Assembly: GCA_017515595.1 (NCBI GenBank)
Contig: JAFWFL010000028.1
Span: 1 to 38,907, forward strand
DNA length: 38,907 nucleotides
DNA from: Coriobacteriales bacterium
GTDB taxonomy: Bacteria > Actinomycetota > Coriobacteriia > Coriobacteriales > UMGS124
Reading direction: 5' to 3'
In this document: positions 2,185 to 28,549 of the stretch, in pieces
Position numbering within the stretch: position 1 is the first letter of the stretch
How the letters are laid out: the number at the start of each line of letters is the position of its first letter
Translations under genes and position numbers: made by a program
The notes under the pieces: model-generated
What the model saw: only the letters and a program-made list of their open reading frames with translations
Told to the model about the DNA's origin: nothing
Databases searched by the model: none

Positions 2185-2213
2185 CCCCTGCTCAGATCAA
2201 TGAGCAGGGGTTT
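2185..2213. terminator. Terminator between convergent reductase and LuxR genes
   Basis: CCCCTGCTCA (2185-2194) pairs perfectly with TGAGCAGGGG (2201-2210) around GATCAA and is followed on the plus strand by TTTCTGTTTG. It fits a rho-independent terminator for the plus-strand reductase. The right arm overlaps the last codons of the LuxR gene, whose stop is at 2197-2199. Confidence 0.7.
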
Positions 2214-3735
2214 CTGTTTGTCTGGGAGTCCCGTTAAAGAGTTGGATGAGTTCTTCTCGGCTTGAGATGCCCATTTTGCGGTATATGTTCCGTACATGGG
2301 TATACACCGTGCTTTCAGATATAAGCAGGGTTTTTGCAACAAATACACTGCTGTGGCCGCGTCCCACGTAGCTTGCGATTTCTTTTTCGCGCGGAGAAAG
2401 ACCGTATTCCTTGGCATATTGCTCTAACAGCATGTCAAACGTTTTTTCCTGGTCAGGTAAAGCAACATCTGCCTCCATAGGTGATGGTTTGATTTCAAGC
2501 GTGCTGTCATTTGTCTGAACGGTAAACTGCCATGATTTATAGCAGTGTTCCAGCAAAAGTGCACTGCAATAAATGCCGGTAAACACCGTAAATAAACTGT
2601 TGAATTCCGTGCTTTGTTCCTGTATGTCTCTGCCAATAAAGATGCCGAGGATACTCATGCCGCAGAATGCACTTATCATTAAAGCAAAAATAAACACCCG
2701 CGGAAACTCGTGTGCATTGGCAATCGCGCAGGCAGAGGCAATTGCCAATACAGTTATCATGGAATAAAACGAATATTGGATGATTAAAACAAAGTCAGTA
2801 TTTTCCCATTGAAACTGTGAAAGACACCCAATCAGAACAATGAACGCTGCGATTGGGAGATAGAGCTGGTAGATAAACGAGAAGAACGGTTTCTTGTCTC
2901 TAAATACAAACAGCGGTATAAGAGCGCATGCACTTACTCCCATAGCAATACTTGACACAGGAACTGTGTTATCAAAAACACTGACAGGGCTGACCCCGGT
3001 TGCAAACGATGCGATAAGCATGCCCAATAAGGGCACGCCCATAACCGACAAAAATGAATGAATATTAACCTTTTCACTTATCTGCTTAGTCTCTTTAGTC
3101 GAATCTTCTGTCACTTCAGCTTCTATTTGGTTTTGCCCAATCTTGTTACCGTTGAGTCCAAAACAAACTATAAAAGGCCATATAGCGCCTGCCAGAACCA
3201 GCGCTATATATAACACAAGATATGCCGGATACGGCATAGCTCCAAGCACGGCATGTATTGCGATACAAAAGAGTGACGATACAATGAGATTGCCTATTAA
3301 AGAGAGGAGTTCGTCATGAGCAAAAGCGCAGGTCCACATGACGCATGTTGGCAGAATGCCTATTGCGGTTATAACAGCAAAAACGGTAACAAACGTGCCG
3401 GCCCACGACGGATCAAACATGAGCATACTCGCATAGCCAAGACAACCCAACACATAACATGCCATCAGAACGCAGGTAACAACTGTCTTTTGCGGGATGG
3501 CTTCTTTGTGGAAATACGAGATGGCTGCTAATATGAGCGCGACTATAAAGGTGATCAATAGTAACGGTTCTGCATACAATCCCGTCAAATAACTCACATT
3601 GCCATTTGCATTAATGGCAACAATATTTGGCGAATAAATAGGCAGAGAAGTCAAAAAAGCAGTAAAGCAAAGAAGCCTTGGCATATCAAAAACAATCCGA
3701 TGCACAGATATTATACCAACATGTTCCTGAGGCAT
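2197..3735 (-). CDS. Membrane-anchored LuxR-family transcriptional regulator
   Basis: The 512-residue protein has a long N-terminal polytopic membrane region (roughly residues 1-400, about ten or more hydrophobic segments). A C-terminal LuxR-type helix-turn-helix follows (about 445-500; GLSPREKEIASYVGRG then VAKTLLISESTVYTHV). This architecture is common in Coriobacteriia, often beside flavin-dependent reductases, and is thought to sense substrate or redox state at the membrane. The start is the ATG at 3735, preceded by GAGGGA with a good spacer; a TTG 36 bases upstream lacks a comparable site. It lies downstream of the reductase at 3879-6155 on the same strand but behind a strong terminator, and converges with the reductase at 342-2120. 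Either or both could be its target. Confidence 0.85.
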   Translation of the reverse strand: MPQEHVGIISVHRIVFDMPRLLCFTAFLTSLPIYSPNIVAINANGNVSYLTGLYAEPLLLITFIVALILAAISYFHKEAIPQKTVVTCVLMACYVLGCLGYASMLMFDPSWAGTFVTVFAVITAIGILPTCVMWTCAFAHDELLSLIGNLIVSSLFCIAIHAVLGAMPYPAYLVLYIALVLAGAIWPFIVCFGLNGNKIGQNQIEAEVTEDSTKETKQISEKVNIHSFLSVMGVPLLGMLIASFATGVSPVSVFDNTVPVSSIAMGVSACALIPLFVFRDKKPFFSFIYQLYLPIAAFIVLIGCLSQFQWENTDFVLIIQYSFYSMITVLAIASACAIANAHEFPRVFIFALMISAFCGMSILGIFIGRDIQEQSTEFNSLFTVFTGIYCSALLLEHCYKSWQFTVQTNDSTLEIKPSPMEADVALPDQEKTFDMLLEQYAKEYGLSPREKEIASYVGRGHSSVFVAKTLLISESTVYTHVRNIYRKMGISSREELIQLFNGTPRQTETPAH

Positions 3736-3808
3736 GCTTCCCTCGCTTTGTATTAGTGTGACAGGGAACAAGCCGTTGCCACACGGTTATTGCCGGAAGC
3801 TATTATAC

Positions 3809-3878: not shown

Positions 3879-6155
3879 TTATGCAGATGCCTGAGCAAGA
3901 ATGTCGGCCATAGCAGTAAAGATTGCCTTGCTTGTTACACTGGCGCCACTAACGCCATTAACACCATCTACACCGTTGGCTTCAACAATGAGCGCGGGGA
4001 GTTGCTCAATAGCCTTAGAACCAATACCCTGGGTTTCTCCGTTTGCGCCTACCTCGACGCTTACAATCTTGCCGCCTTCGATGGTAACGGTAAGCGGTAC
4101 TTTACCGCCAATACCCTTGCCGGTTGCCTCGTAGACGCCGTCCTTGTAGGTTGCACCTGATGCTTCGACCGGAGCAGCCTCGCCTGCAGGAGCGCCACCC
4201 TCAGCGCCGGGACCACCGGCTCCGGGACCGCCTGCACCGGGGCCGCCCGGGCCCATGCCGTTTGCAGACTGCTTGGGAGCGGCATTGTTAAGTCCAAGCG
4301 TGGTGGGAGCATCAATATCTGCGGTTGCAAGGTATTCGCCAAGGCACATTCCGAGCGTGAGGCACATACCAATCGAAACACCGTTCATAATGCCGTTATA
4401 GCCCATGGGGAAGCGGCCGCCCGAAGTATTACCGGTTGCAAAGAGACCCTTAATGGGTTCAAAGCCCTGGCCCTGGACCTGCTGGTTCTCGGTGACGAGA
4501 AGACCTGATGTTGAGACCAGAGAACCGCCGCCTGCGCGCTTGCTTGCGGCAAAACCATAGAACGGGGGAGTAGCGATGGGCCAGATGAGCTTGGGATCAC
4601 GGCCAAACTCTTTGTCGACGCCGCTCTGGGCTGCTTCATTCCAGGCCTGAACCTCGGCGAGAGCGTTTGCTGCGACCTCGGGCTCCATGCCCAGGTATTC
4701 AAAGAGCTCTTCAAGGGTATCGGCGCAGAAGAGGTATTTGCCGCTTGCGTCATAACCCTCAGGACCGCTGCCAATGGCGGCTTCCATGTTCTGGGCAATC
4801 TGCTCAACAGATTCCTCACGCCAATCCTTAAGAATAAGATGACCGGCGATGTGGCTCAGGAGGACTTCCTTCCAGTTAGCGTCCCAAACGGTGTAAATAA
4901 TGGTACCGGGCTGCTTTGCGGTTGCGCAGCCTGAGAGGAGCGGTCCGCCGTAAGCCTCATTGCAGAAGCGCTTGCCGTACTTGTTGAGCCAGATGGTCTC
5001 GGTTGACTCCATGGGAGTCATGAGCATGGCTGCGTGGCTGCCCATGTCGCCGCCGGTTGCAATCTCAACCTTGGCGCCAATGCGCATAGCCATGGCGATG
5101 CCGCTGCCGTCGCGGCCTGAGAATGAACGGCAGTCCGAGTACTCGCCAAGGGCATAGTTCTCGCCGCAAATGGCATTGTACATCTGTGAGTTGCTGCCAA
5201 TGTCACCGCAGGCAAGAACAACCGCCGGGGCATTGAACTGAACATATGAACCGTCTGCACGCTGTGCAATAACACCGGTAACCTCAGTGCCATCCTCATT
5301 GTGGACCAGACGGACAGCGGTAGTCTCGTACTGGAACTCAGCGCCGGCGTCCTTGGCGATTTGCTGGGTGCGGAGCAAAGCCTCGCGCAAACCAACGCTG
5401 CCGCCAAAGTTGGGAGTACCAACGTAGCTCGTGAAGAGCTTACCGTAGTTGTAATCATAACCTTCAGCTGCAGGCCAGTTCAGGCAGACAATACCGGCCT
5501 TCTCGTCATCAGAGAGATTATCAATAAACCAGTCAAACGCTTCGCCCGAGCGGTGCGCAAACTGGCTGATCAAGCCCCACTGCGCACGGCCGGCGCAATA
5601 GATTTGATACTCATTGATAAAGGTAGCCTCATCGTAAACAGGAATACCGTTGATCTCGGTCTGCCACTTGGAATTGAGGTGTCCAATGTCATTACCAAGG
5701 ACACTAAAGGTATCCTCTGCCTGGGGATCAATAACAATTACTTGTGCGCCAAGCTCGGCTGCCTTGCGTGCGCAAGCTGTTCCCGAGTGACCGGCGCCGC
5801 ATACAACAATCTGAGTATCGATGGTCTCGGCAATATCAGTGATTTCGGGCTCTTCGCCAAGCCAGCCTGCACCTAATACCTGGCCCATTGTTTTGCCTGC
5901 ATTACCCTCAAAAGTCATGCCTGCAGCAGGAGCGGCAGCAGCTGTATCTGCTGAGGGAGCATCCGCGCCCATAGGAGCGCCTGCACCCGGAGCGCCGGCA
6001 GGAGCTTCTGAAGCAAACGCGGTGCCTGCAAGCGCTGCGCCGGCAAAAGCCATGCCTGCGCCGGCCATGAATCCGCGACGGGTGCATGTGGCAGGTACCG
6101 GAATTGCACCACGAATGTTTTCGAGACGCGCTTTGATTTCTTGCTGAGTTGCCAT
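3879..6155 (-). CDS. Tat-exported flavoprotein reductase with C-terminal FMN-binding domain
   Basis: The 758-residue, two-flavin product resembles the urocanate/fumarate/acrylate reductase type, in which a covalently held FMN hands electrons to FAD at the active site. The Tat signal is unusual: about 25 residues precede TRRGFMAG (Arg26-Arg27). The FAD motif VVCGAGHSG ends near residue 125. A Gly/Pro/Ala-rich linker of PGAGG repeats joins to the FMN_bind domain (about 668-758), whose VSGASVTS matches the flavinylation motif. There is no heme motif. The start is the ATG at 6155, preceded by AGAAGG; an upstream in-frame start at 6200 would hide the Tat signal further. The same strand carries a LuxR regulator downstream beyond a terminator. 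The substrate is unknown. Confidence 0.9.
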   Translation of the reverse strand: MATQQEIKARLENIRGAIPVPATCTRRGFMAGAGMAFAGAALAGTAFASEAPAGAPGAGAPMGADAPSADTAAAAPAAGMTFEGNAGKTMGQVLGAGWLGEEPEITDIAETIDTQIVVCGAGHSGTACARKAAELGAQVIVIDPQAEDTFSVLGNDIGHLNSKWQTEINGIPVYDEATFINEYQIYCAGRAQWGLISQFAHRSGEAFDWFIDNLSDDEKAGIVCLNWPAAEGYDYNYGKLFTSYVGTPNFGGSVGLREALLRTQQIAKDAGAEFQYETTAVRLVHNEDGTEVTGVIAQRADGSYVQFNAPAVVLACGDIGSNSQMYNAICGENYALGEYSDCRSFSGRDGSGIAMAMRIGAKVEIATGGDMGSHAAMLMTPMESTETIWLNKYGKRFCNEAYGGPLLSGCATAKQPGTIIYTVWDANWKEVLLSHIAGHLILKDWREESVEQIAQNMEAAIGSGPEGYDASGKYLFCADTLEELFEYLGMEPEVAANALAEVQAWNEAAQSGVDKEFGRDPKLIWPIATPPFYGFAASKRAGGGSLVSTSGLLVTENQQVQGQGFEPIKGLFATGNTSGGRFPMGYNGIMNGVSIGMCLTLGMCLGEYLATADIDAPTTLGLNNAAPKQSANGMGPGGPGAGGPGAGGPGAEGGAPAGEAAPVEASGATYKDGVYEATGKGIGGKVPLTVTIEGGKIVSVEVGANGETQGIGSKAIEQLPALIVEANGVDGVNGVSGASVTSKAIFTAMADILAQASA

Positions 6156-6376
6156 GTTGGTCCTTCTTTCTTTTGAAATCAATGGACAAGCCTGCAACAA
6201 AACAGTCTTATATAAAGATCATTTTCACCGGACAAGTTGTTCTGTTGCGTTGTGTTGACACATGACAGACTATAAAAAACAACAAGAGTGATAACAATCG
6301 TGAAACCTTGATTTTGTAATTTCCCTAAGTGCCACGACCCTCAAGGAAACTGATGATTAGGTTTATTAAACTGCAG

Positions 6377-6406
6377 TTGTAATACTTATTTAAAAACGTG
6401 TATCAT
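6377..6406 (+). promoter_or_regulatory. Putative promoter of the DUF1538/PII operon
   Basis: TTGTAA (6377-6382) and TATCAT (6401-6406) are separated by 18 bases and lie about 50 bases before the DUF1538 start. The match to sigma-70-type consensus is moderate. Confidence 0.35.
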
Positions 6407-6455
6407 ACGCATTGATAAATCAGTGTATGCCTGTAAGTAAGCAAAAGGGGTGTCA

Positions 6456-7979
6456 TTGGATAGAAACAGTTTGCGGACAAAACTCATTGAGGCATTGCGT
6501 GCGGTTATCCCCATTGTGTGCATTGTGCTTGCGTTTTGCTTTACCGCAGCGCCGGTCGAAGCTGATTTTATGCTCACGTTTTTGCTGGGCTCGGTTTTAC
6601 TGACGCTTGGGCTTGGGCTGTTTACCTTTGGTGCAGATGCCTCAATGACGCTTATTGGTACGCATATTGGTTCAAAACTTACTGCCTCGCGCAAGCTCGG
6701 CGTTATCTTGGGCATCAGTCTGCTCTTGGGCATTATTATTACGGTGGCCGAACCGGACCTCCAGGTGCTTGCTCAAACGGTACCTCATATTGATACGCTG
6801 GTATTGATACTGATTGTGGCTGTGGGCGTGGGACTGTTCCTCATGCTCGCAATGTTTCGCATTTTAACGGGCATCAAGCTCAAATGGCTCCTTTTGGTGT
6901 CATATACTCTGGTTTTTGTTCTCGCGTTTTTCTCGGACCCTGCTTATTTGGCTATTGCGTTTGACTCGGGCGGAGCAACTACGGGTCCCATGACGGCGCC
7001 GTTTATTATGTCAATGGGTATAGGCGTTGCGGCAATTCGCTCGGACAGCAATGCCGAGGCAGACTCGTTTGGCCTGCTGGCGCTCTGCTCCATTGGGCCT
7101 ATTCTCTCTGTTTTGATCTTGGGATTCTTTTATCCCGGCGATATTCAACAGTATGTTCCCGCGGTGTTTGCAACGTACGAGAATACCCGCGATATCGCAG
7201 CTGCGTATCTGGGAGGTTTGGTTACCTATGCGCTCGAGGTAGCGCTTGCTCTCGCACCAATTGTGATATTCTTCCTCATATTCCAGGTATTCTCTCTTAA
7301 GATGCCGCGCCTCCCGTTTGTGCGCATTCTCATTGGCCTTGTATTTACCTATCTTGGCCTGGTACTCTTTTTGACCGGCGTCAACGTGGGCTTCTCGACA
7401 CTCGGAACCAAGCTTGGCACGCAGCTGGTTTCTGACACCTGGATGCAGCTGCTGGCCATTGCGGGAGCTGCGTGCATGGGATGGTTTGTGGTAGCCGCCG
7501 AGCCTGCGGTTCACGTACTTACCAAACAGGTTGAGGAGATCAGCGCCGGTACCGTGAGCGCACGCGTCATGCAAACAAGCCTTTCTCTCGCCGTTGCGAT
7601 TGCCGCCGGGCTCTCGGTTTGGCGAATCTTTGCCGGCGTCAATATTCTCTGGATATTACTGCCGGGTTACGGAATTGCTTTAGCGCTCTCGTTTGTGGTG
7701 CCGCAGCTTTTTACCGCTATCGCGTTTGACTCGGGCGGCGTTGCCTCAGGTCCCATGACGGCGACGTTTATGCTGCCGTTTGCGATTGGCGTTTGCTCTG
7801 CCTACGGCGGGAACGTCATAACCGACGCCTTTGGACTGGTTGCCATGGTAGCCATGACGCCGCTTATTGTTGTGCAGGTAGTGGGCCTTGTCGCCAGGAT
7901 TCGCGAGCGTGCCGCCATTGCTGACCTGGCCGAGACAAGCGATGATTACCAAGTTATCGAGCTTTGGGAGGTGGAATAA
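6456..7979 (+). CDS. DUF1538 family integral membrane protein
   Basis: The protein of about 507 residues has around a dozen hydrophobic segments in two homologous halves. Each half carries the DUF1538 hallmark: AFDSGGATTGPMTAP near residue 170 and AFDSGGVASGPMTAT near residue 425. The inverted or tandem duplication and Gly/Ser/Thr-rich half-loops look like a secondary transporter, but no substrate is established for the family. AAAGGGG (6444-6450) is correctly spaced from the TTG at 6456 and overlaps the in-frame GTG at 6450, so TTG is the preferred start. The stop overlaps the next start (TAATG), implying translational coupling to the PII-like protein, which probably gates or senses it. Confidence 0.85.
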   Translation: MDRNSLRTKLIEALRAVIPIVCIVLAFCFTAAPVEADFMLTFLLGSVLLTLGLGLFTFGADASMTLIGTHIGSKLTASRKLGVILGISLLLGIIITVAEPDLQVLAQTVPHIDTLVLILIVAVGVGLFLMLAMFRILTGIKLKWLLLVSYTLVFVLAFFSDPAYLAIAFDSGGATTGPMTAPFIMSMGIGVAAIRSDSNAEADSFGLLALCSIGPILSVLILGFFYPGDIQQYVPAVFATYENTRDIAAAYLGGLVTYALEVALALAPIVIFFLIFQVFSLKMPRLPFVRILIGLVFTYLGLVLFLTGVNVGFSTLGTKLGTQLVSDTWMQLLAIAGAACMGWFVVAAEPAVHVLTKQVEEISAGTVSARVMQTSLSLAVAIAAGLSVWRIFAGVNILWILLPGYGIALALSFVVPQLFTAIAFDSGGVASGPMTATFMLPFAIGVCSAYGGNVITDAFGLVAMVAMTPLIVVQVVGLVARIRERAAIADLAETSDDYQVIELWEVE

Positions 7980-8668
7980 TGGAGCTGTATCTTGTGATTA
8001 CCATCGTAAGCAGAAGCCGCCAAAAAGCGCTCGAAAAGATTATGCGCGAGCTTGATGTGCCGCTGAGCCTCTCTTTTGCCGGGCAAGGTACCGCGACCCA
8101 GAGCCAGATAGAGCGTCTGGGCCTCACCGAGAGTCTCAAGTTTGTAAACCTCTGCCTCGCAGATTCTCAAAAGGCCAGGCAGCTCATGCGGTTAAGCCGT
8201 TCAAAACTCTACATTGGTTTTCCTGGCAATGGCCTGGTGATCTCTATTCCTGTTAAAAGTATCGCAGGATCAAAAACGTTTTCATATTTGCTCAACACCG
8301 CCTCGGTTCAAGGAGGTACCCCCGCCATGGATTACTCGCATGAACTCATTATTGCAGTTGCTAACCGCGATTATGTAGACACGGTCATGGATGCTGCGCG
8401 CGCAGCCGGAGCAAGAGGAGGCACGGTAGTCCATGCAAAAGGCACCGGAGCCCATCTCGCCAAAAAATTTCTCAACGTATCGCTTTCTACCGAGAAGGAA
8501 ATCATTCTCATTGTCGCCAGCGCAGACACCAAGTCACAAATCATGGAAGCAATAGTCCGCGACGCAGGCCCCCAAACTGATGCCGGAGCCATAGCATTTT
8601 CCCTCCCGGTCTCAGAAGTCAACGGCCTGCGCGAACCGGACCCCATAGAGCCTGAAGAATCGGAATAA
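7979..8668 (+). CDS. Tandem PII-like signalling protein
   Basis: The product is about 229 residues, twice the length of a usual PII monomer. The C-terminal half (about 110-220) reads like a PII protein: ARGGTVVHAKGTG in the T-loop region, then EKEIILIVAS and AGAIAFSLPVSEVNGL. The N-terminal half has the same strand-helix layout (ELYLVITIV, then LSFAGQGTATQSQIERLGL) but is more divergent, so this looks like a fused duplication. PII and PII-like proteins bind nucleotides or other small molecules and often control a neighbouring transporter. The one-base overlap with the DUF1538 gene makes that protein the obvious partner. The start is the ATG at 7979, with GGGAGGTGG upstream. The ligand is unknown. 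Confidence 0.85.
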   Translation: MELYLVITIVSRSRQKALEKIMRELDVPLSLSFAGQGTATQSQIERLGLTESLKFVNLCLADSQKARQLMRLSRSKLYIGFPGNGLVISIPVKSIAGSKTFSYLLNTASVQGGTPAMDYSHELIIAVANRDYVDTVMDAARAAGARGGTVVHAKGTGAHLAKKFLNVSLSTEKEIILIVASADTKSQIMEAIVRDAGPQTDAGAIAFSLPVSEVNGLREPDPIEPEESE

Positions 8669-8963: not shown

Positions 8964-8989
8964 GGGATATGTGGCCAATTACTTGCCCC

Positions 8990-9206
8990 GTGCGCACAAA
9001 ATGAGACCTGTTTTGACCACAAATTTTGAATGTGTGACCAATTTTACGCTCGAGCAGCTTTTCTCCATAGTCATACCATTTCTGCCGAGAAGAACCCGCA
9101 GCTCAGAGAGATACGAACCCCAAGGGTTTCTCGGCAAAGTCTGTTTTAAGCGGTTATTGGTCACACATTCAAAATTTGTGGACAATTTAGGCTTGATTTT
9201 GTGCAC
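8990..9206. mobile_element. MITE-like inverted-repeat element, no ORF
   Basis: Two 26-bp arms at 9017-9042 and 9156-9181 are perfect inverted copies (CCACAAATTTTGAATGTGTG plus ACCAAT). Weaker complementarity extends outward to GCGCACAAAAT (8992-9002) and ATTTTGTGCAC (9196-9206). Patches continue inward, where TGCCGAGAA and TTCTCGGCA arms are still recognisable. The whole could fold into one long hairpin. No protein is encoded and no clear target duplication was found. It may be a non-autonomous transposable element or a large regulatory hairpin. Confidence 0.55.
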
Positions 9207-9490
9207 AAGGAGTAATAAGTTCGAGCTGTGCGATAGGAAGCTCCTCGTGAGTCACTACTCTACACAACCCACCCTTCGCGGTATTCTGACCTCGATTTAT
9301 AGCGTATTACCCAAAATAGGGTAGCGAAATTATACTAAAAACGGTAGAGAGAACTCTTAAATTGGAAATAGCAAATCTGGTTTTGAAGGTGTACACTACC
9401 AGCCATCAACCGCATCGCGCATCTCACGAAGAGATGGCGGTCATTGTAAGTGTTACGTAGAAGTAAGGCATTACGAGAAAGGTTTGTATT

Positions 9491-11476
9491 ATGAACATGT
9501 CACGTCGCTCATTTGTCCAGGGTGCAGGTCTTGTTGTTGCATCAGCAGCTATGGCAACCACCGCAAGCGCTCTTGCCGAGGAAGCCCCCGCTGCCGAGAT
9601 AGCCTGGGACGGCGAAGCTGATATCATTATCTGCGGTCTTGGTGTTGCCGGTCTGGCTGCCGCTATTACCGCAACCGTTGAGGAGCTTGGTACCACTATT
9701 AACCTCGAGGCCGCTCCCAAGCGTGCCCGCGGCGGTAACTCCTGCTGCACCCAGGGTGTTGTGTTCTGCCCCAAGGACAAGGAATCTGCAATTATTTATC
9801 AGACCGTTCTGAATGACCCCTACTACGTCCCCGCTGACATTATTGACGCATGGGCAGAAGAGATTCCTCAAAACATTGATTGGCTTGAGAATGTCTGCGG
9901 TATGCGTTGGCATGAGCCTTCAACCGGCGAGCCTTGCTATTTCTCACCAATTGGCGAGTTCCCCATGATGACCGGTGCAGAGAATTGTCCCTGCTGGAAG
10001 CCTGTTACTCAGGAATTTGGCCAGGGTCAGACTTGGGGTTCCATGGTAGCCAAGTTTGATGCGCTGGGTTGCCCCGTTTATTACGAAGCCCGCGCTATCA
10101 AGCTCATTCAGGATGCCGAGGGCAAGGTTATTGGCGTTGAGTGCGAAGACGGCCGCAAGTTCAAGGGTAACAAGGGTGTTCTTCTTGCTACCGGTGGTTT
10201 TGAAGCCAATCCCGAGATGATGGAGATGTACAACGCAACCGGTCATCCCAATATGATTGGCAAGGGTACCCCTTACAACCGCGGCGACGGCATGAAGATG
10301 GCCCAGCGCCTGGGTGCTGACCTTTGGCATATGAATAACATCTCTGGCTGTATGCTCGGCTTCAATGTTGTTGCCAACAGCGAGTTTGATTATCGCGCTT
10401 CATTCGCACACAAGACCTGCGAGTACATTTATGTCGACAAGAACGGCGAGCGCTGGATCAACGAGAGCGTTGAGGGACTTCAGGGCCTCGCACTTCATGG
10501 TAAGTATTATCACAACGGTTCCTGGATGGATATGCCTCATCCTGATAACTGCTGGTGCATTATGGGCCAGGGTTGCTATGAGGCCGGCGGTTATACGTAT
10601 AATTACAACAACTTCCCGCATCGTAAGGCTGTTGACGGTGTTTGCTGGAATATGGAAGACACCATTGCCGCAGGTATCACGGTTAAGTGCGAGACTATTG
10701 CCGACATCGCAACCGTTACCGGTCTTGACGAGCAGACCCTCACCAATACCATCAACTTCTACAATGATAACGCTGCTCAGAACATTGATCCCATCTTCCA
10801 TCGCGGTGTTGCACTTACCCAAATGGGCGACCAGCTCATCGAGTACGGCCATGAGGACGAGACACCCAAGGTCAAGGCCTTTGACCTTATCCCCATCAGC
10901 GCGCCTTACTATGTAACCGCTCTCAAGGGCTGCATGTACAACACCCAGGGTGGCGTTAAGCGTTCGCCCAACTGCGAAGTTCTCACCATTGATGGCGAGC
11001 CAATCCCCGGTCTTTACGCTGCCGGCGAGAATGGTTGCGAGTATGCATACATCTACAACGTAGGCGGCAACATCTCCGAGAGCATCAGCTCCGGCCGTCG
11101 TGCAGCCCGCGTTATGCTCACCGGTTCTCCTGCAGCCGGCGTCTTTAATCCTGACGCAATGGCTACCAACGCTCTGCCCAAGCCTGAGGCCGTTGTGAGC
11201 GATGCTGTTTACAAGGATGGCACCTACATTGGCAACGGCGTAGGCATTAGCGGCCCGCTCCAGGTAAGCGTTACCATTGAGGGCGGCAAGATCGCTAACG
11301 TTGAGGTTCTTGATCCCAAGGAGACCCGTGGTATTGGCGACGCAATTGTTATGGCTATGCCCGAAGTCATCAAAGCCGCTAACGGCACTGAGGGTGTCGA
11401 GGTCTTCTCCGGCGCTTCAACCACCTCTCACGGCATCCTGGTAGCAGTTGACGAGGCTCTTGCACAAGCCATGTAA
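9491..11476 (+). CDS. Tat-exported flavoprotein reductase with C-terminal FMN-binding domain
   Basis: The 661-residue protein begins with a canonical Tat signal (MSRRSFVQG, Arg5-Arg6) ending near ASALA. The FAD motif IICGLGVAG is at about 46-54, and the C-terminal FAD contact GLYAAGENG is present. A C-terminal FMN_bind domain (about 572-661) contains VFSGASTTSHG, the predicted covalent FMN site. No heme motif is seen. The fold and two-flavin layout fit fumarate/urocanate-type reductases; the acceptor is unknown. The start is ATG 9491 after GAGAAAGG, with a second ATG two codons later. No regulator gene is adjacent, unlike the other reductase clusters. A strong bidirectional terminator follows. 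Confidence 0.9.
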   Translation: MNMSRRSFVQGAGLVVASAAMATTASALAEEAPAAEIAWDGEADIIICGLGVAGLAAAITATVEELGTTINLEAAPKRARGGNSCCTQGVVFCPKDKESAIIYQTVLNDPYYVPADIIDAWAEEIPQNIDWLENVCGMRWHEPSTGEPCYFSPIGEFPMMTGAENCPCWKPVTQEFGQGQTWGSMVAKFDALGCPVYYEARAIKLIQDAEGKVIGVECEDGRKFKGNKGVLLATGGFEANPEMMEMYNATGHPNMIGKGTPYNRGDGMKMAQRLGADLWHMNNISGCMLGFNVVANSEFDYRASFAHKTCEYIYVDKNGERWINESVEGLQGLALHGKYYHNGSWMDMPHPDNCWCIMGQGCYEAGGYTYNYNNFPHRKAVDGVCWNMEDTIAAGITVKCETIADIATVTGLDEQTLTNTINFYNDNAAQNIDPIFHRGVALTQMGDQLIEYGHEDETPKVKAFDLIPISAPYYVTALKGCMYNTQGGVKRSPNCEVLTIDGEPIPGLYAAGENGCEYAYIYNVGGNISESISSGRRAARVMLTGSPAAGVFNPDAMATNALPKPEAVVSDAVYKDGTYIGNGVGISGPLQVSVTIEGGKIANVEVLDPKETRGIGDAIVMAMPEVIKAANGTEGVEVFSGASTTSHGILVAVDEALAQAM

Positions 11477-23733: not shown

Positions 23734-24324
23734 ATGTCAAAGGGCAAGCATTACATGCTGCCGCAGGCATCGTCGGCGCAGTGGCAACAGGAATTAGAGC
23801 GTGAGCGCTATAGGGTAAACTATAGGCGCACCTTGAGGAACACCATCTATTCTCTGGTGACAGTTGCTGCTGTATCGGTTTTGATTGCTGTTTTGTTGCT
23901 TCCCGTCTTACAAATCTACGGAACATCAATGAGTCCAACCCTTGACGAGGGAGAATTTGTTGTTTCGGTAAAGGGCAGTGATTTCACCACCGGTGATGTT
24001 ATTGCGTTTTACTACAACAATAAGATTCTCGTTAAGCGTGTAATAGCCAGTGCGGGTGACTGGGTAGATATTGATAAAGACGGAACGGTCTATGTGAACA
24101 GTGTTAAGCTTAATGAACCGTATGTTACCGATCTGTCACTTGGCGATTGCAATATCGATTTCCCATACCAAGTCCCCGAGTCGCGCTTCTTTGTTATGGG
24201 AGACCATCGCAACATCTCAATAGATTCACGTAACACAAGTGTAGGTCCGGTTTCCGATGAGCAAATAGTCGGTAAAATCGTTTTCAGAATATGGCCTTTA
24301 GATAAATTGGGGGTGATCAGATAA
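23734..24324 (+). CDS. lepB: Signal peptidase I
   Basis: The 196-residue type I signal peptidase has one N-terminal membrane anchor (about 37-60). The catalytic Ser65 lies in YGTSMSPTL and Lys101 in the LVKRVIA box. The last conserved box reads GDHRNISIDSR, with His where the usual motif has Asn (GDNRxxSxDSR). Placed upstream of the pilins, it probably processes their signal peptides, as SipA-type enzymes do in other pilus islands. It is 5 bases after the coiled-coil gene. About 220 AT-rich bases separate it from the major pilin, so that gene likely has its own promoter. Confidence 0.9.
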   Translation: MSKGKHYMLPQASSAQWQQELERERYRVNYRRTLRNTIYSLVTVAAVSVLIAVLLLPVLQIYGTSMSPTLDEGEFVVSVKGSDFTTGDVIAFYYNNKILVKRVIASAGDWVDIDKDGTVYVNSVKLNEPYVTDLSLGDCNIDFPYQVPESRFFVMGDHRNISIDSRNTSVGPVSDEQIVGKIVFRIWPLDKLGVIR

Positions 24325-24545
24325 AATGCGCACCCCAAATGAAGAGAGAGTATCTCTGCATACTTTGCATCGATATGGCAAATGTATGGACGCTAACTTG
24401 TGCAAAAAGTATAGGTATTGTGTTCTTAGTAGGTTAATTGAATGAATTTTTATAACCCTGGTAATTCAAGGTACTTCAATGCTTATATAAAAGAGTTACA
24501 ATTTCCTTGTATTATGGCAAGTAATAAAACAGAAAGGAATGGTGT

Positions 24546-25973
24546 ATGAAAGTCATAAAAAGAATGTTAGCTATAGTCGCTGCATTGGTAATGATGCTGG
24601 CTATAGCAATTCCGGCAATGGCAGTTGACAGCAGCCAAGGTGGAAGTGCATCCATTACCATCACGCTTCCGACTACTGAGGTAGCTCCGACAACTACAAC
24701 AACTTACAAAATCTATAAGGTGTTTGATGCCACTAGTAATGGTTCTGATGCTATCGCTTATAGACTGGTTGAAGGAAAGACCGCAGCACCTGCTGGGTTT
24801 ACCGTTGATGCGGTAGGAAATGTTACATATTCCGGAACATCTACGACTGGTGAGTTAACGGATGCAGATATTGCTGCAATTGCTGGATACGTGACAAATA
24901 GTGACCTGGTGTATACAGCTGAAGTTGCTGCCGGAACTGCCTCAGTTACAATTGAAAACTTGCAATATGGTTATTACTACATCACTACTACAACTGGTAC
25001 TGCTGTAACAATTGATAGTACAAATCCTGACGCAACTGTTAATGATAAGAACGTGATTCCTCCTGTTGTAAAATCTGCAGGAACACAGTATGATGCAGCA
25101 TCTCTTAAGGCAATCGCTGCAGTTGGAACTTCGCAGCCGTTCACAGCAGTTATTACAAAGACACATGGTGCAACCAATCTGGTATTTACCGATACCATGA
25201 CCGATATGTCTTATAATGGCGATGTCGAAATTACTGTATCTGCCGGTACTGCTCCTACCGCTGCGCAGGCTGTAGTGACTACCACAGCAACAGGATTCAC
25301 CGTAGCATTTGATAATAACTACATTGCGGGTCTCGCAGATGGAACAACGATTACATTAAAATATTCAGGAACGATTTTGTCAGATGCCCTTTCAGTTAAT
25401 CCTGCAAAAAACAAAGCAACCCTTACATCTGGTGAAGGCAATACATCTACAAGTGAAGAAGTAGAAGTATATAATGCTAAGTTTACTGTAACAAAACAAG
25501 ATGATAAGCAGAAACCTCTGGCAGGCGCTGGGTTCGTTATCAAAAACTCTGAGGGTAAATATTACAAACTGAATGCAGCAACCAGCACGGATCCAGCTTC
25601 CATTACATGGTATGAACTTCCTTCAGGAACTAAACTCGCTGATGCTATTACTGCTGGCAACATCACAGAGCACACCTCTGATTCTACAGGCGCAGTTGCA
25701 GCATTCACTGGTCTTGCAGATGGCACCTATACTCTGGTTGAATCCACTACTCCTGCCGGTTACAACACTGCTGCGGATTACGAATTTACGATTGCTGGAA
25801 ATGATTACACTACAACGAATCTCGAGCAGAGCACTACGGTTGTAAATAATACCGGTCAAGAGCTTCCTTCCACCGGTGGCATTGGTACCACGATCTTCTA
25901 CGTAATCGGCGCGATCCTTGTCATCGGAGCAGGCGTTGTCCTCGTAACCCGTCGCAGAATGAATGTTCAGTAA
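24546..25973 (+). CDS. Major pilin, LPXTG-anchored, fimbrial isopeptide type
   Basis: The 475-residue precursor has a Sec signal (cleavage near AMA, residue 26) and a Thr-rich N domain. A D2-type isopeptide domain follows (about 170-310): VNDKNVIPPVVK at its start carries a candidate pilin or isopeptide lysine, and NPAKNKATL a candidate Asn. A Cna-B/SpaA-like D3 domain starts KFTVTKQDDKQKPLAGAGF and has an E-box, YTLVESTTPAGY. The sorting signal LPSTG (440-444), hydrophobic helix and RRR tail complete it. It should be polymerised by the class C sortase downstream. The ribosome site is AGAAAGGAATGG. A terminator immediately follows, so it may be made in excess over the sortases. Confidence 0.9.
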   Translation: MKVIKRMLAIVAALVMMLAIAIPAMAVDSSQGGSASITITLPTTEVAPTTTTTYKIYKVFDATSNGSDAIAYRLVEGKTAAPAGFTVDAVGNVTYSGTSTTGELTDADIAAIAGYVTNSDLVYTAEVAAGTASVTIENLQYGYYYITTTTGTAVTIDSTNPDATVNDKNVIPPVVKSAGTQYDAASLKAIAAVGTSQPFTAVITKTHGATNLVFTDTMTDMSYNGDVEITVSAGTAPTAAQAVVTTTATGFTVAFDNNYIAGLADGTTITLKYSGTILSDALSVNPAKNKATLTSGEGNTSTSEEVEVYNAKFTVTKQDDKQKPLAGAGFVIKNSEGKYYKLNAATSTDPASITWYELPSGTKLADAITAGNITEHTSDSTGAVAAFTGLADGTYTLVESTTPAGYNTAADYEFTIAGNDYTTTNLEQSTTVVNNTGQELPSTGGIGTTIFYVIGAILVIGAGVVLVTRRRMNVQ

Positions 25974-26309
25974 TCACAGCTGTGATTGAAAATTTAATCA
26001 GCAATTAATCTAAAAGAGCTGGTCTTTTTGAAGGCCAGCTCTTTTATAGTAGGTAATTAGTATTGACTAACAACGACAATAAAAGTAACAGTTAATAAAT
26101 CTATATTTATCTTGAGAATCCCCCTCTGTAAAGCGTTGTATCTAGTCAGAGTTGTAGAGATGTGCAAATCTTACGTTCTCATAAAAATCACCAAGACAAG
26201 TGTTAGATTCCTGGTGTATAAGGTTTAAAATAAATTAGTTCTATAAGTGTTAAGGTAATCTTAAATGCTTTTATGCATCGTGTTTTGGTAAATAGGTCTA
26301 GGAGAACGT
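25974..26309. other. 336-bp spacer between major pilin and sortase
   Basis: It contains the pilin terminator (26011-26046) and then about 260 AT-rich bases with no gene. A separate promoter for the sortase/minor-pilin unit is expected here, but I cannot pick one with confidence. Confidence 0.5.
26011..26046. terminator. Terminator after the major pilin
   Basis: TAAAAGAGCTGG (26011-26022) and CCAGCTCTTTTA (26035-26046) form a perfect 12-bp stem with A- and T-rich ends. It probably limits transcription into the sortase genes. Confidence 0.8.
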
Positions 26310-27134
26310 TTGAAGCGGCATTCGTCTACCATAGGGCTGGTATTGATCTTTTTATTTGGATTAATCCTGCTGTTATATCCCTCGTTCAGTGATTGGTGGA
26401 ACCAATTTCATCAATCCCGTGCGGTAGTGAGTTATGCAGAGACAGTTGCCACCATTGATAACCCGGCTTACGAACGTATGTATACAGAAGCTGTGGAATA
26501 TAATGAAAGGCTTAAAGAATCCGAAATTCACTGGATACTGACCCCAGAAGAAATGGATGAGTACAACAACACGTTGTGCGTTACCGAATCGGGAATTATG
26601 TCTTATATTGAGATCCCTGCTATTAACGTTATGTTGCCGGTATATCACGGAACTGAGGGTACAATTTTACAAGTTGCGATTGGACATCTCGCGGGGACAA
26701 GTCTTCCGGTTGGAGGAGAAAGTACCCATTGCGTTCTTTCGGGTCACCGGGGACTTCCAAGTGCAAGATTGTTCACGGATCTTGATAAACTTGTTAAAGG
26801 TGATATATTTTTTATTAGAATACTTGATGAAGTGTTGACATATGAAGTCGATCAAATTAGGATAGTAGAACCAACAGATCTGAGCGATATTGTGATCGTT
26901 GAAGGTCAGGATTATTGCACGTTGGTTACCTGCACACCGTATGGTATTAACACGCACAGATTGTTAGTACGCGGTCATCGTGTCGAGACGGTTACAAATG
27001 CAACGGTGCGTGTAGTAGCAGACGCATTGCAGGTGGGAACTGCGATAGTTGCTCTCTTTATCGCAATTCCGATTCTTTTGGTGTTGATGATTATTGTGTT
27101 GTTGACTTCGGGAAGAAGTAAAAAGCGCGCGTAG
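26310..27134 (+). CDS. srtC: Class C (pilus-polymerising) sortase
   Basis: The 274-residue transpeptidase has an N-terminal membrane segment (about 8-25), a pre-catalytic lid region with DNPAYERMY, and the triad His146 (SGHRGLP), Cys208 (TLVTCTPYG) and Arg217 (HRLLVRGHR). A C-terminal hydrophobic helix and basic tail are typical of class C. It cleaves LPXTG pilins and links them through a pilin lysine. The start codon is TTG at 26310 with a clear TAGGAGAACG ribosome site. It precedes the minor pilin by 11 bases. Confidence 0.9.
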   Translation: MKRHSSTIGLVLIFLFGLILLLYPSFSDWWNQFHQSRAVVSYAETVATIDNPAYERMYTEAVEYNERLKESEIHWILTPEEMDEYNNTLCVTESGIMSYIEIPAINVMLPVYHGTEGTILQVAIGHLAGTSLPVGGESTHCVLSGHRGLPSARLFTDLDKLVKGDIFFIRILDEVLTYEVDQIRIVEPTDLSDIVIVEGQDYCTLVTCTPYGINTHRLLVRGHRVETVTNATVRVVADALQVGTAIVALFIAIPILLVLMIIVLLTSGRSKKRA

Positions 27135-27145
27135 AGTAGGCTGCC

Positions 27146-27835
27146 ATGGAACGTATACGTAGGTTAGTTATTGGAATAATCATCATGGCTATTATGACGA
27201 TAGCATGCTGCTCATCTGCATTTGCAAGTGAGCATGCGAATCATGTGCCAGATTATTCAAGATTAGGATCAGTGTCTGTACAGATTCTCACATCCGATGG
27301 CACACAGGTACCTGGCGGTGAGCTGACGGCTTATTTTGTCGCCCAGGCAGAAGACCATGACGGCAATGCCGAACTTGTATTTACGTCAGAATTCGCAGCA
27401 TGCGGTCTTGATCTCTCTGTAATTAGTTCAGAGAAGCCCGGTGCTCCCGAGCTCGCAAAGAGTCTTGCCGATTATGCTACTTCCAATGGTCTGACCGGTA
27501 CGGTAGTAACAATAGACAATTCGGGAAAAGGATTGTTTACCAATCTTAAGCTTGGTCTTTATTTAATTGTGCAGAATAAGCCTGCAGAAGGTTACAACGC
27601 AATTAACCCGTTTGTGATTACCGTTCCTCTTTGGGATGGCAATGAGTATTTGTACGATGTTGATGCAAATCCAAAACCAGAAACAGCTACAAAGATTACA
27701 CCTCCTCCCGATCCTCCCACTCCTCCGGATGTGCCTCAAACAGGTCAGCTTTGGTGGCCGGTGCCTGTTCTTCTGGCTGTAGGTATTGGAATCTTTGCTC
27801 TTGGCGTTGTAATGCGTCGCAGGACTACTAAGTAA
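27146..27835 (+). CDS. Minor/basal pilin with VPQTG sorting signal
   Basis: The 229-residue precursor has a Sec signal (cleavage near AFA) and a beta-rich body. LGLYLIVQNKPAEGY and NPFVITVPLWDGNEYLYDV are typical of SpaA-like pilins, ending in DANPKPE, a pilin-motif-like lysine context. A Pro-rich stretch precedes VPQTGQLWWPVP, a sorting-signal variant with Val for Leu and the WPxP extension common to a subclass of pilus subunits. It is probably a base or ancillary subunit. The stop overlaps the next sortase start (TAATG), so this pair is likely matched as substrate and enzyme. The ribosome site is weak. Confidence 0.85.
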   Translation: MERIRRLVIGIIIMAIMTIACCSSAFASEHANHVPDYSRLGSVSVQILTSDGTQVPGGELTAYFVAQAEDHDGNAELVFTSEFAACGLDLSVISSEKPGAPELAKSLADYATSNGLTGTVVTIDNSGKGLFTNLKLGLYLIVQNKPAEGYNAINPFVITVPLWDGNEYLYDVDANPKPETATKITPPPDPPTPPDVPQTGQLWWPVPVLLAVGIGIFALGVVMRRRTTK

Positions 27836-28446
27836 TGAAGCGAGCTTTTTCCGTTATCTTCATGCTCGTGGGCGTGCTTTGTGTTGTCGCAGCGTTTTGG
27901 CTTGTGAAATATAACCAAGACGAATCAGAAGCTGCCGGTAAAGATTCAGCGCGAGTGTTGGATAGCTTACAAGTAACAATATCTGACAATATAGGAGAGC
28001 CCTCAACGGTCTCTCCTTATGAGGCTTTGTCTGATAATCCGCAAATGTCGGTAGAGTTTATTGAAGGCTATAACTATATAGGCGTGCTGGAGATTCCGTC
28101 AGTCAAGATTCTCTTGCCGGTAATGGATACCTGTGATTATGAGCGTCTAAGTATTGCTCCCTGCAGATTTACCGGTACGTATTATACGAATGATCTTGTT
28201 ATATGCGGACACAACTACTCAACGCACTTTTGGCCGTTACTTGATGTGAACATCGGAGCGGATGTATATCTTACTACAACCGACGGGAACGTTTATAAAT
28301 ACATTGTTGTTAACCGCGAGGATGTGGCACCGACTGCCGTAGATACTATTATAAATAATAATAATGGAGAGTGGGATTTAACCCTATTTACCTGTGACTT
28401 TAGCGGCCAGAACCGTTGCTGTGTACGATGTGTGCTTAAGAAATAG
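27835..28446 (+). CDS. Second sortase, coupled to the minor pilin
   Basis: The 203-residue sortase has an N-terminal membrane anchor and the triad His126 (ICGHNYSTHF), Cys187 (TLFTCDFSG) and Arg194 (QNRCCVRC). It lacks a C-terminal membrane helix, unlike the class C enzyme upstream, and looks closer to class B/D-like sortases. The one-base overlap with the VPQTG pilin suggests it attaches that protein, and with it the pilus, to the wall or to another subunit. The cysteines flanking Arg194 are unusual. A strong terminator follows. Confidence 0.8.
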   Translation: MKRAFSVIFMLVGVLCVVAAFWLVKYNQDESEAAGKDSARVLDSLQVTISDNIGEPSTVSPYEALSDNPQMSVEFIEGYNYIGVLEIPSVKILLPVMDTCDYERLSIAPCRFTGTYYTNDLVICGHNYSTHFWPLLDVNIGADVYLTTTDGNVYKYIVVNREDVAPTAVDTIINNNNGEWDLTLFTCDFSGQNRCCVRCVLKK

Positions 28447-28457
28447 CGTGAGTAGCT

Positions 28458-28492
28458 AAAAGGCCGAGTGTGCAAAACACTCGGCCTTTTTC
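28458..28492. terminator. Bidirectional terminator between pilus locus and peptide transporter
   Basis: AAAAGGCCGAGTGT (28458-28471) and ACACTCGGCCTTTT (28477-28490) form a perfect 14-bp stem with a 5-base loop and T/A-rich flanks on both strands. It lies between convergent operons. Confidence 0.9.
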
Positions 28493-28549
28493 TTAGTACG
28501 AAGTTGTTCTTTGGCTTCCCCTTGAGGGGAAGGCAAAAAATGCTGGAAT

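Follow-up and report, generated by a model that had tools for sequence, protein, structure and literature searches.

The window, i.e., the whole stretch of DNA that was analyzed (38,907 nucleotides of a Coriobacteriales contig), carries a two-gene operon on its forward strand. The first gene (6456–7979) starts with TTG at 6456, ends with TAA at 7977–7979, and encodes a DUF1538 membrane protein of 507 residues. The TTG codon is preceded by GGGG at 6447–6450, and an in-frame GTG lies at 6450. The second gene (7979–8668) starts with ATG at 7979 and encodes a tandem PII-like protein of 229 residues, as indicated by a PF00543 match in its C-terminal half and by the AF2 model. A one-base overlap at position 7979 joins the stop codon of the DUF1538 gene and the ATG of the PII gene. 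Re-reading of the sequence, together with two matches of PF07556, bore out the gene coordinates, the coupling through the one-base overlap, and the repeated motifs reported in the preliminary description of this locus.

The operon is flanked by two genes for reductases with FAD_binding_2 and FMN_bind domains, at 3879–6200 on the reverse strand and at 9491–11476 on the forward strand, and a gene for a LuxR-type regulator (2197–3771) lies beside one of them. Just behind the PII gene, at 8983–9215, there is a dispersed MITE/REP-like element of ~233 bp, whose 60-nt terminal inverted repeats are 82% complementary. The genome that carries it gave 52 matches to this element, and 13 of these matches reach 190 bp or more. 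A microRNA match in the window was discarded as spurious because it is explained by this inverted-repeat element. The G+C content was 41%–45% at 24000–28500 and mostly 48%–56% elsewhere in the window, so this may be an acquired stretch.

PF07556 (DUF1538) matched the membrane protein twice, with an overall E-value of 3.9e-131 and single-domain E-values of 6.1e-67 and 6.6e-66. Hydropathy peaks and the family alignment predict 14 transmembrane (TM) segments, seven in each half, and the AF2 model had a pLDDT of 93.3 and a pTM of 0.91. The first copy of the domain (half A) spans 6513–7130 and the second copy (half B) 7260–7892, both on the forward strand. In half A, the motif FDSGGATTGPMT (6960–6995) lies where the predicted helix of residues 162–174 breaks off before the next one (180–192). 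Its counterpart in half B, FDSGGVASGPMT (7725–7760), was located from the sequence and the AF2 model. The C-terminal tail YQVIELWEVE (7947–7976) is predicted to be cytoplasmic and is a candidate docking peptide for PII.

Comparison of the DUF1538 model with known transporter folds by Foldseek gave no match at E ≤ 0.001 (best, 1.5e-2). With VIA-align, the best Z was 5.2, which is under the noise level stated for the tool, so no known fold was assigned, although a new fold does not follow from this lack of matches. The sodium/calcium exchanger rows in VIA-align also lay below this noise level (Z 4.2–4.7, rmsd 5.2–6.8). The window protein missed the NCBIfam cut-offs for both UmpA (145.1 vs 490 bits) and UmpB (133.6 vs 500 bits), and an Alphaproteobacterial pair (L160) was likewise under these cut-offs. 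The NCBIfam models gave no clean placement of half A as UmpA and half B as UmpB.

In the tandem PII-like protein, PF00543 (P-II) matched residues 123–219 (E = 1.5e-11; 44.9 bits vs a gathering score of 25), and the N-terminal half alone had no Pfam match. That this half is not PII was nevertheless ruled out by profile comparison, PDB profile matches, and the fold; it is Pfam alone that misses it. The profiles of the N and C halves from 10 homologues aligned with each other collinearly (97 columns; E = 6.5e-11, probability 97.1%), and the N-terminal part of a 79-row profile matched solved PII chains (9p1x, E = 4.8e-8). The C-terminal half gave a PDB profile match in addition to that of Pfam, and in one relative (L079), two P-II stretches were reported by Pfam itself. 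Residues 1–110 of the AF2 model (mean pLDDT 86.4, pTM 0.82) aligned to SbtB/PII chains with Z up to 8.6 (rmsd 2.4, 84 aligned residues), with SbtB among the tied top rows. Structure prediction thus places a PII fold in the N-terminal half, and the double-length PII protein with two unlike halves that had been proposed earlier stands, its N half being a diverged but true PII. The N-terminal domain (7979–8302) is the diverged first copy, as supported by profile comparison, fold, and tree. The C-terminal domain (8339–8629) is the conserved second copy, and its type is also that of the lone PII in relatives with split or single DUF1538 genes. The preliminary description also pictured one asymmetric ring of mixed halves. 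This geometry would be compatible with the explanation preferred below, but it appears rather doubtful. Each chain does have two unlike halves, and the pTM of the two-domain model may suggest a defined mutual placement, but two domains alone cannot close a three-membered ring, and three tandem chains could equally assemble into separate homotrimeric rings of N and of C domains.

The linkage between DUF1538 and PII is near-obligate and was seen in three phyla. In the phylum of an Oscillospiraceae genome (G246), 101 of 299 genomes contained DUF1538 and 102 matched the tandem-PII profile: 100 genomes had both, one had DUF1538 alone, two had the PII type alone, and 196 had neither (Fisher p = 1.9e-76). 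The profile was built from DUF1538-linked proteins, so these counts show dedication for this PII type and do not extend to PII proteins in general. Among the 150 domain matches listed (82 of the 101 genomes), a PII match lay directly downstream on the same strand at 92 of 95 DUF1538 loci. The three exceptions are a locus near a contig end (G337), a short-contig locus preceded by a PII fragment (G407), and G472, whose tandem PII gene is on a contig other than that of its fused DUF1538 gene. We also scanned 117 PII loci, one further locus, and the window with our own profiles for DUF1538 (D) and PII (P). The D-to-P junctions were on the same strand in 121/121 cases, a count that takes in the window and a duplicate locus, and no gap exceeded 117 bp.

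Within the class to which the window belongs, DUF1538 was found in 3 of 246 genomes; the window's own genome and G156 have the PII type, and G006 is without it. Among 296 Actinomycetota genomes, 19 had DUF1538 (18 above the family cut-off), and a complete unit of one or two D followed by P was present at 15 of the 17 loci examined. The remaining two are cut on the D side with P kept (L169) or end with the contig before any P (L174). On two Alphaproteobacterial plasmids, D, D, and P are consecutive. A plasmid search with PII alone returned six records, all of which were among the nine DUF1538 records, with PII directly after DUF1538. Chance adjacency of the two families is ruled out by the genome co-occurrence and by the junction and downstream counts. 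The survey of genomic linkage that had been suggested as a check thus came out clearly, with 100 genomes against 1 + 2 among the 299.

According to the PII profile, the PII type was absent from the whole genome in G252 and G006 despite the presence of a fused DUF1538 protein. Therefore, PII is not needed by every DUF1538 member. The PII-less gene in G006 (L008) adjoins, by eye, a gene for a putative P-type cation ATPase on the same strand and with overlapping ends. In the G156 locus (L009, ~6184–7723), the frame of the DUF1538 gene is broken near its FDAGG motif and the tandem PII gene is intact; the break reflects either a pseudogene or a sequencing error. In two Actinomycetota loci (L167 and L168), a D+D+P operon is immediately followed by a second D+P unit, i.e., a paired and a singleton system lie side by side.

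The complete operons differed in the fusion state of both partners. Fused D-D was accompanied by tandem PP in 51 operons and by two separate P in one; split D+D was accompanied by one P in 23, by P+P in six, and by PP in 14; and a single D with P was found in 11. These counts exclude the window, one duplicate, loci cut by contig ends, DUF1538 fragments alone, PII-only loci (L073, L094, L046, L032, L077, L117, and L139), DD loci without PII (L008, L018, and L148), broken frames (L009, L014, L020, and L107), and loci with N runs (L109 and L132). An apparent covalent DUF1538–PII fusion (L132) and an apparent three-domain DUF1538 protein (L109) were both dismissed as artefacts of the N runs.

On a tree of 108 operons, built by a quick method, D-D fusion required one change, PP fusion eight, and PII module number three. 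Because the transporter fused in a single event, with only one independent pair for the comparison with PII fusion, no correlation between the two fusions can be claimed. In the PII-domain tree (208 domains), which is built on few columns and contains numerous weak forks, first and second copies were separated by one change, and second copies grouped with the single PII. As read from these sequences, a single duplication of PII came before several PII fusions, the first copy (N half) diverged after this duplication, and the transporter fused once. The window DUF1538 protein was nested among sequences from Lachnospiraceae, Oscillospiraceae, and other Clostridia (a starred set of seven, 99%), which suggests transfer into the lineage of the window.

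More telling than the features listed in the preliminary description is the inverted-repeat architecture of the membrane protein. Seven hydropathy peaks were found in the alignment of DUF1538 halves, and the UmpAB subunits were predicted likewise (PMC5484666). With this odd number of passes, the second half would be inverted relative to the first. For each half, the K+R bias was calculated as the difference in loop Lys+Arg counts between the two faces, with the loop borders taken from the AF2 helices and the inside face assigned by the positive-inside rule. The bias of the ANTIPARALLEL halves was opposite between A and B without exception, in 120 fused as well as 106 split halves. For A halves, it averaged +6.93 (60 fused) and +4.38 (53 split) and was above 0 in 113/113; for B halves, it averaged −6.65 (60 fused) and −4.92 (53 split) and was below 0 in 113/113. 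In the window, the bias was +9 for half A, whose N terminus is predicted inside, and −6 for half B, which would lie upside down relative to half A. The inner loops alone gave the same pattern (A 5.07 and 2.75, B −4.55 and −2.36, singles −0.06), and the Asp+Glu counts showed no reversal between A and B halves.

The single-gene DUF1538 relatives (n = 18) had a mean K+R bias of +0.39, ranging from −2 to 3, and such a near-zero bias is a mark of dual topology. In 14 of these 18 cases, the genome had one DUF1538 match only, so the singleton there must act together with itself. The same criterion has been applied to Fluc and, by Rapp et al., in their survey, according to PMC3755343 and PMC3962082. 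Fused A halves, fused B halves, and singles each formed one side of a starred branch in the tree, with A vs B as one change. The opposite bias points to an antiparallel arrangement of the two DUF1538 halves, and their architecture as inverted repeats is strongly supported at the sequence level. By the same kind of evidence, the family keeps single, paired, and fused stages, with PII beside each.

To characterize the PII partner, 77 first, 77 second, and 54 single PII copies were aligned to the canonical PII of the host genome. We considered positions Q39, K90, R101, and R103, which we take, in numbering and role, to be the ATP/2-oxoglutarate residues of classical PII. In the DUF1538-linked copies, the K90 position was Ile in 85%–92% and the R101 position was Gly in 68%–100%, R103 had no aligned residue, and the Q39 position was mostly His or Ser/Asn. 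By these residues, the DUF1538-linked PII proteins fall outside the canonical GlnB/GlnK type. In the second and single copies, the T-loop still opens with an R-G-T-G-x-H-E-like block and the B-loop GxG is conserved; the R-G-T-G-x-H-E-like block is largely gone from the first copies. With the block and GxG kept and K90, R101, and R103 gone, nucleotide-type binding by the C half of the tandem PII is plausible, and classical ATP/2-oxoglutarate sensing is not. As the classical residues are absent, the signal is probably another one; our guess is that it may be an adenine-type or cyclic nucleotide.

A possible contact site was found in one clade of fused DUF1538 proteins (28 rows, 97%), where the C-terminal tail ends in a D-x-IIxL-type motif (VIELWE in the window). 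The tail pattern was found in 24 of 60 fused proteins, all of which are within this clade. The tail of L013 (VIELWDI) lies outside the pattern and was counted by eye, and L055 is without the motif. The tail was thus present in 25 of the 26 PII-linked proteins of the clade and in neither of its two PII-less members. The latter, L008 and L018, come from genomes without a PII profile match, and L018 is the sister of the window protein (97%). In the second clade of fused proteins (31 rows, with PII next to 30 of them), the tail motif is absent, and therefore the tail is not a general docking site.

A total of 119 loci (100 + 19 more) were scanned with Rfam. A c-di-AMP riboswitch lay directly before the operon in L072 (~50 bases) and in L106 (~19 bases before the first possible start). 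In L042, the c-di-AMP riboswitch sits behind the operon, ahead of the next gene, and the Rfam scan of the window revealed no c-di-AMP riboswitch near the operon. The riboswitch as a general regulator was rejected, as c-di-AMP leaders occurred in only 2 of the 119 loci. A riboswitch of this class has been described as controlling a potassium transporter operon (PMC6488665).

The measured relative of the window protein is UmpAB of Halomonas zhaodongensis, a two-component Na(Li,K)/H antiporter that needs both subunits (PMC5484666). As in the window, DUF1538 makes up both subunits or halves (NF041627/NF041628), with seven TM segments each by the prediction of its authors. The hetero-dimeric make-up of UmpAB is a further parallel, but its subunits are encoded by separate genes, whereas the two halves are fused in the window protein. 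The main text of that paper does not mention PII, P-II, topology, or antiparallel. In view of UmpAB, the earlier statement that neither substrate nor ligand is known was too strong for the substrate, but it holds for the ligand.

We consider it probable (roughly 0.72) that the two genes form an operon for a PII-regulated cation antiporter, composed of a fused UmpA/UmpB-like protein and a dedicated PII sensor. The two seven-helix halves would be inserted in opposite orientations, and the conserved acidic AEP and FDSGG motifs of both halves would meet as a pseudo-symmetric cation/proton site. By analogy with the antiport by UmpAB, the window protein would most likely exchange protons and a monovalent cation, either Na or K. 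Because it scores far below the UmpA cut-off (145 vs 490 bits), the cation could differ. The tandem PII would dock on the cytoplasmic face, in the clade of the window probably at the IIELWE-type tail, and may open or block the antiporter depending on the bound small molecule, as in GlnK-AmtB and SbtB-SbtA. In these two systems, a small cytosolic PII is encoded with one membrane transporter and acts on it. GlnK and SbtB are single-domain homotrimers, whereas the window protein is a tandem of two unlike PII domains in which the ATP/2-oxoglutarate residues are missing, and AmtB and SbtA belong to other transporter families than DUF1538. The pairing of a transporter with a private PII partner, as originally proposed, is supported by the near-obligate linkage in three phyla and by the PII nature of the N half; from these, we infer regulation.

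The best-known PII targets are nutrient transporters, and the DUF1538 protein might instead carry something else, such as bicarbonate, ammonium, or another nutrient ion, with PII gating uptake as for SbtA or AmtB. Its distant UmpA score and the presence of SbtB among the tied closest folds to the N half would fit such a role. We nevertheless regard it as unlikely, because Na(Li,K)/H antiport is the only measured DUF1538 activity found (PMC5484666), the c-di-AMP riboswitch leaders of two operons suggest control by potassium or osmotic state, and DUF1538 was listed among pH-adaptation features in a machine-learning study (PMC13255231). It is very improbable that PII does not touch the transporter and is a co-transcribed general sensor with other targets or an assembly factor: the separate contigs in G472 indicate that adjacency is not strictly required, but the two families co-occur across whole genomes as tightly as they adjoin, this PII type turned up only next to DUF1538 when plasmids were searched in reverse, and the tail motif and PII are jointly absent in two members of one clade.

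The antiporter explanation can be set beside the known dual-topology families. For DUF606, SMR (EmrE), and Fluc, unbiased singletons, opposite-bias pairs, and fused antiparallel proteins have been described, with all three stages reported for DUF606 (PMC3962082 and PMC3755343). The proteins tabulated there have three to six TM segments, compared with seven in the DUF1538 halves. Their descriptions in these sources include no PII partner, whereas the partner gene of DUF1538 duplicates and fuses as well. In the open full-text literature, outside which most subscription papers lie, we found no published DUF1538–PII pairing, no antiparallel DUF1538, and nothing relevant on PII-like proteins with antiporters; umpA and umpB were traced to the 2017 UmpAB paper only. 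Taken jointly, and with somewhat less assurance than for the antiporter itself, we favor DUF1538 as a new dual-topology transporter family, larger in its seven TM segments than those tabulated, which would comprise all three stages, with a PII regulator, inherited alongside and itself duplicated and fused, in control of each and a nucleotide signal linked to potassium or osmotic state.

If this joint reading is true, a 3-fold soluble ring controls a 2-fold antiparallel membrane unit while touching only one of its two faces. A regulator is thereby attached to a DUF-named family with one measured activity, and PII gating would extend from nutrient uptake to ion/proton exchange. The family would also offer a living series from single to pair to fusion for the rise of inverted-repeat transporters, with every stage open to assay for a single function (cation/proton exchange) and a single partner (PII). 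The old question of whether fused transporters descend from dual-topology singletons would thus become directly testable.
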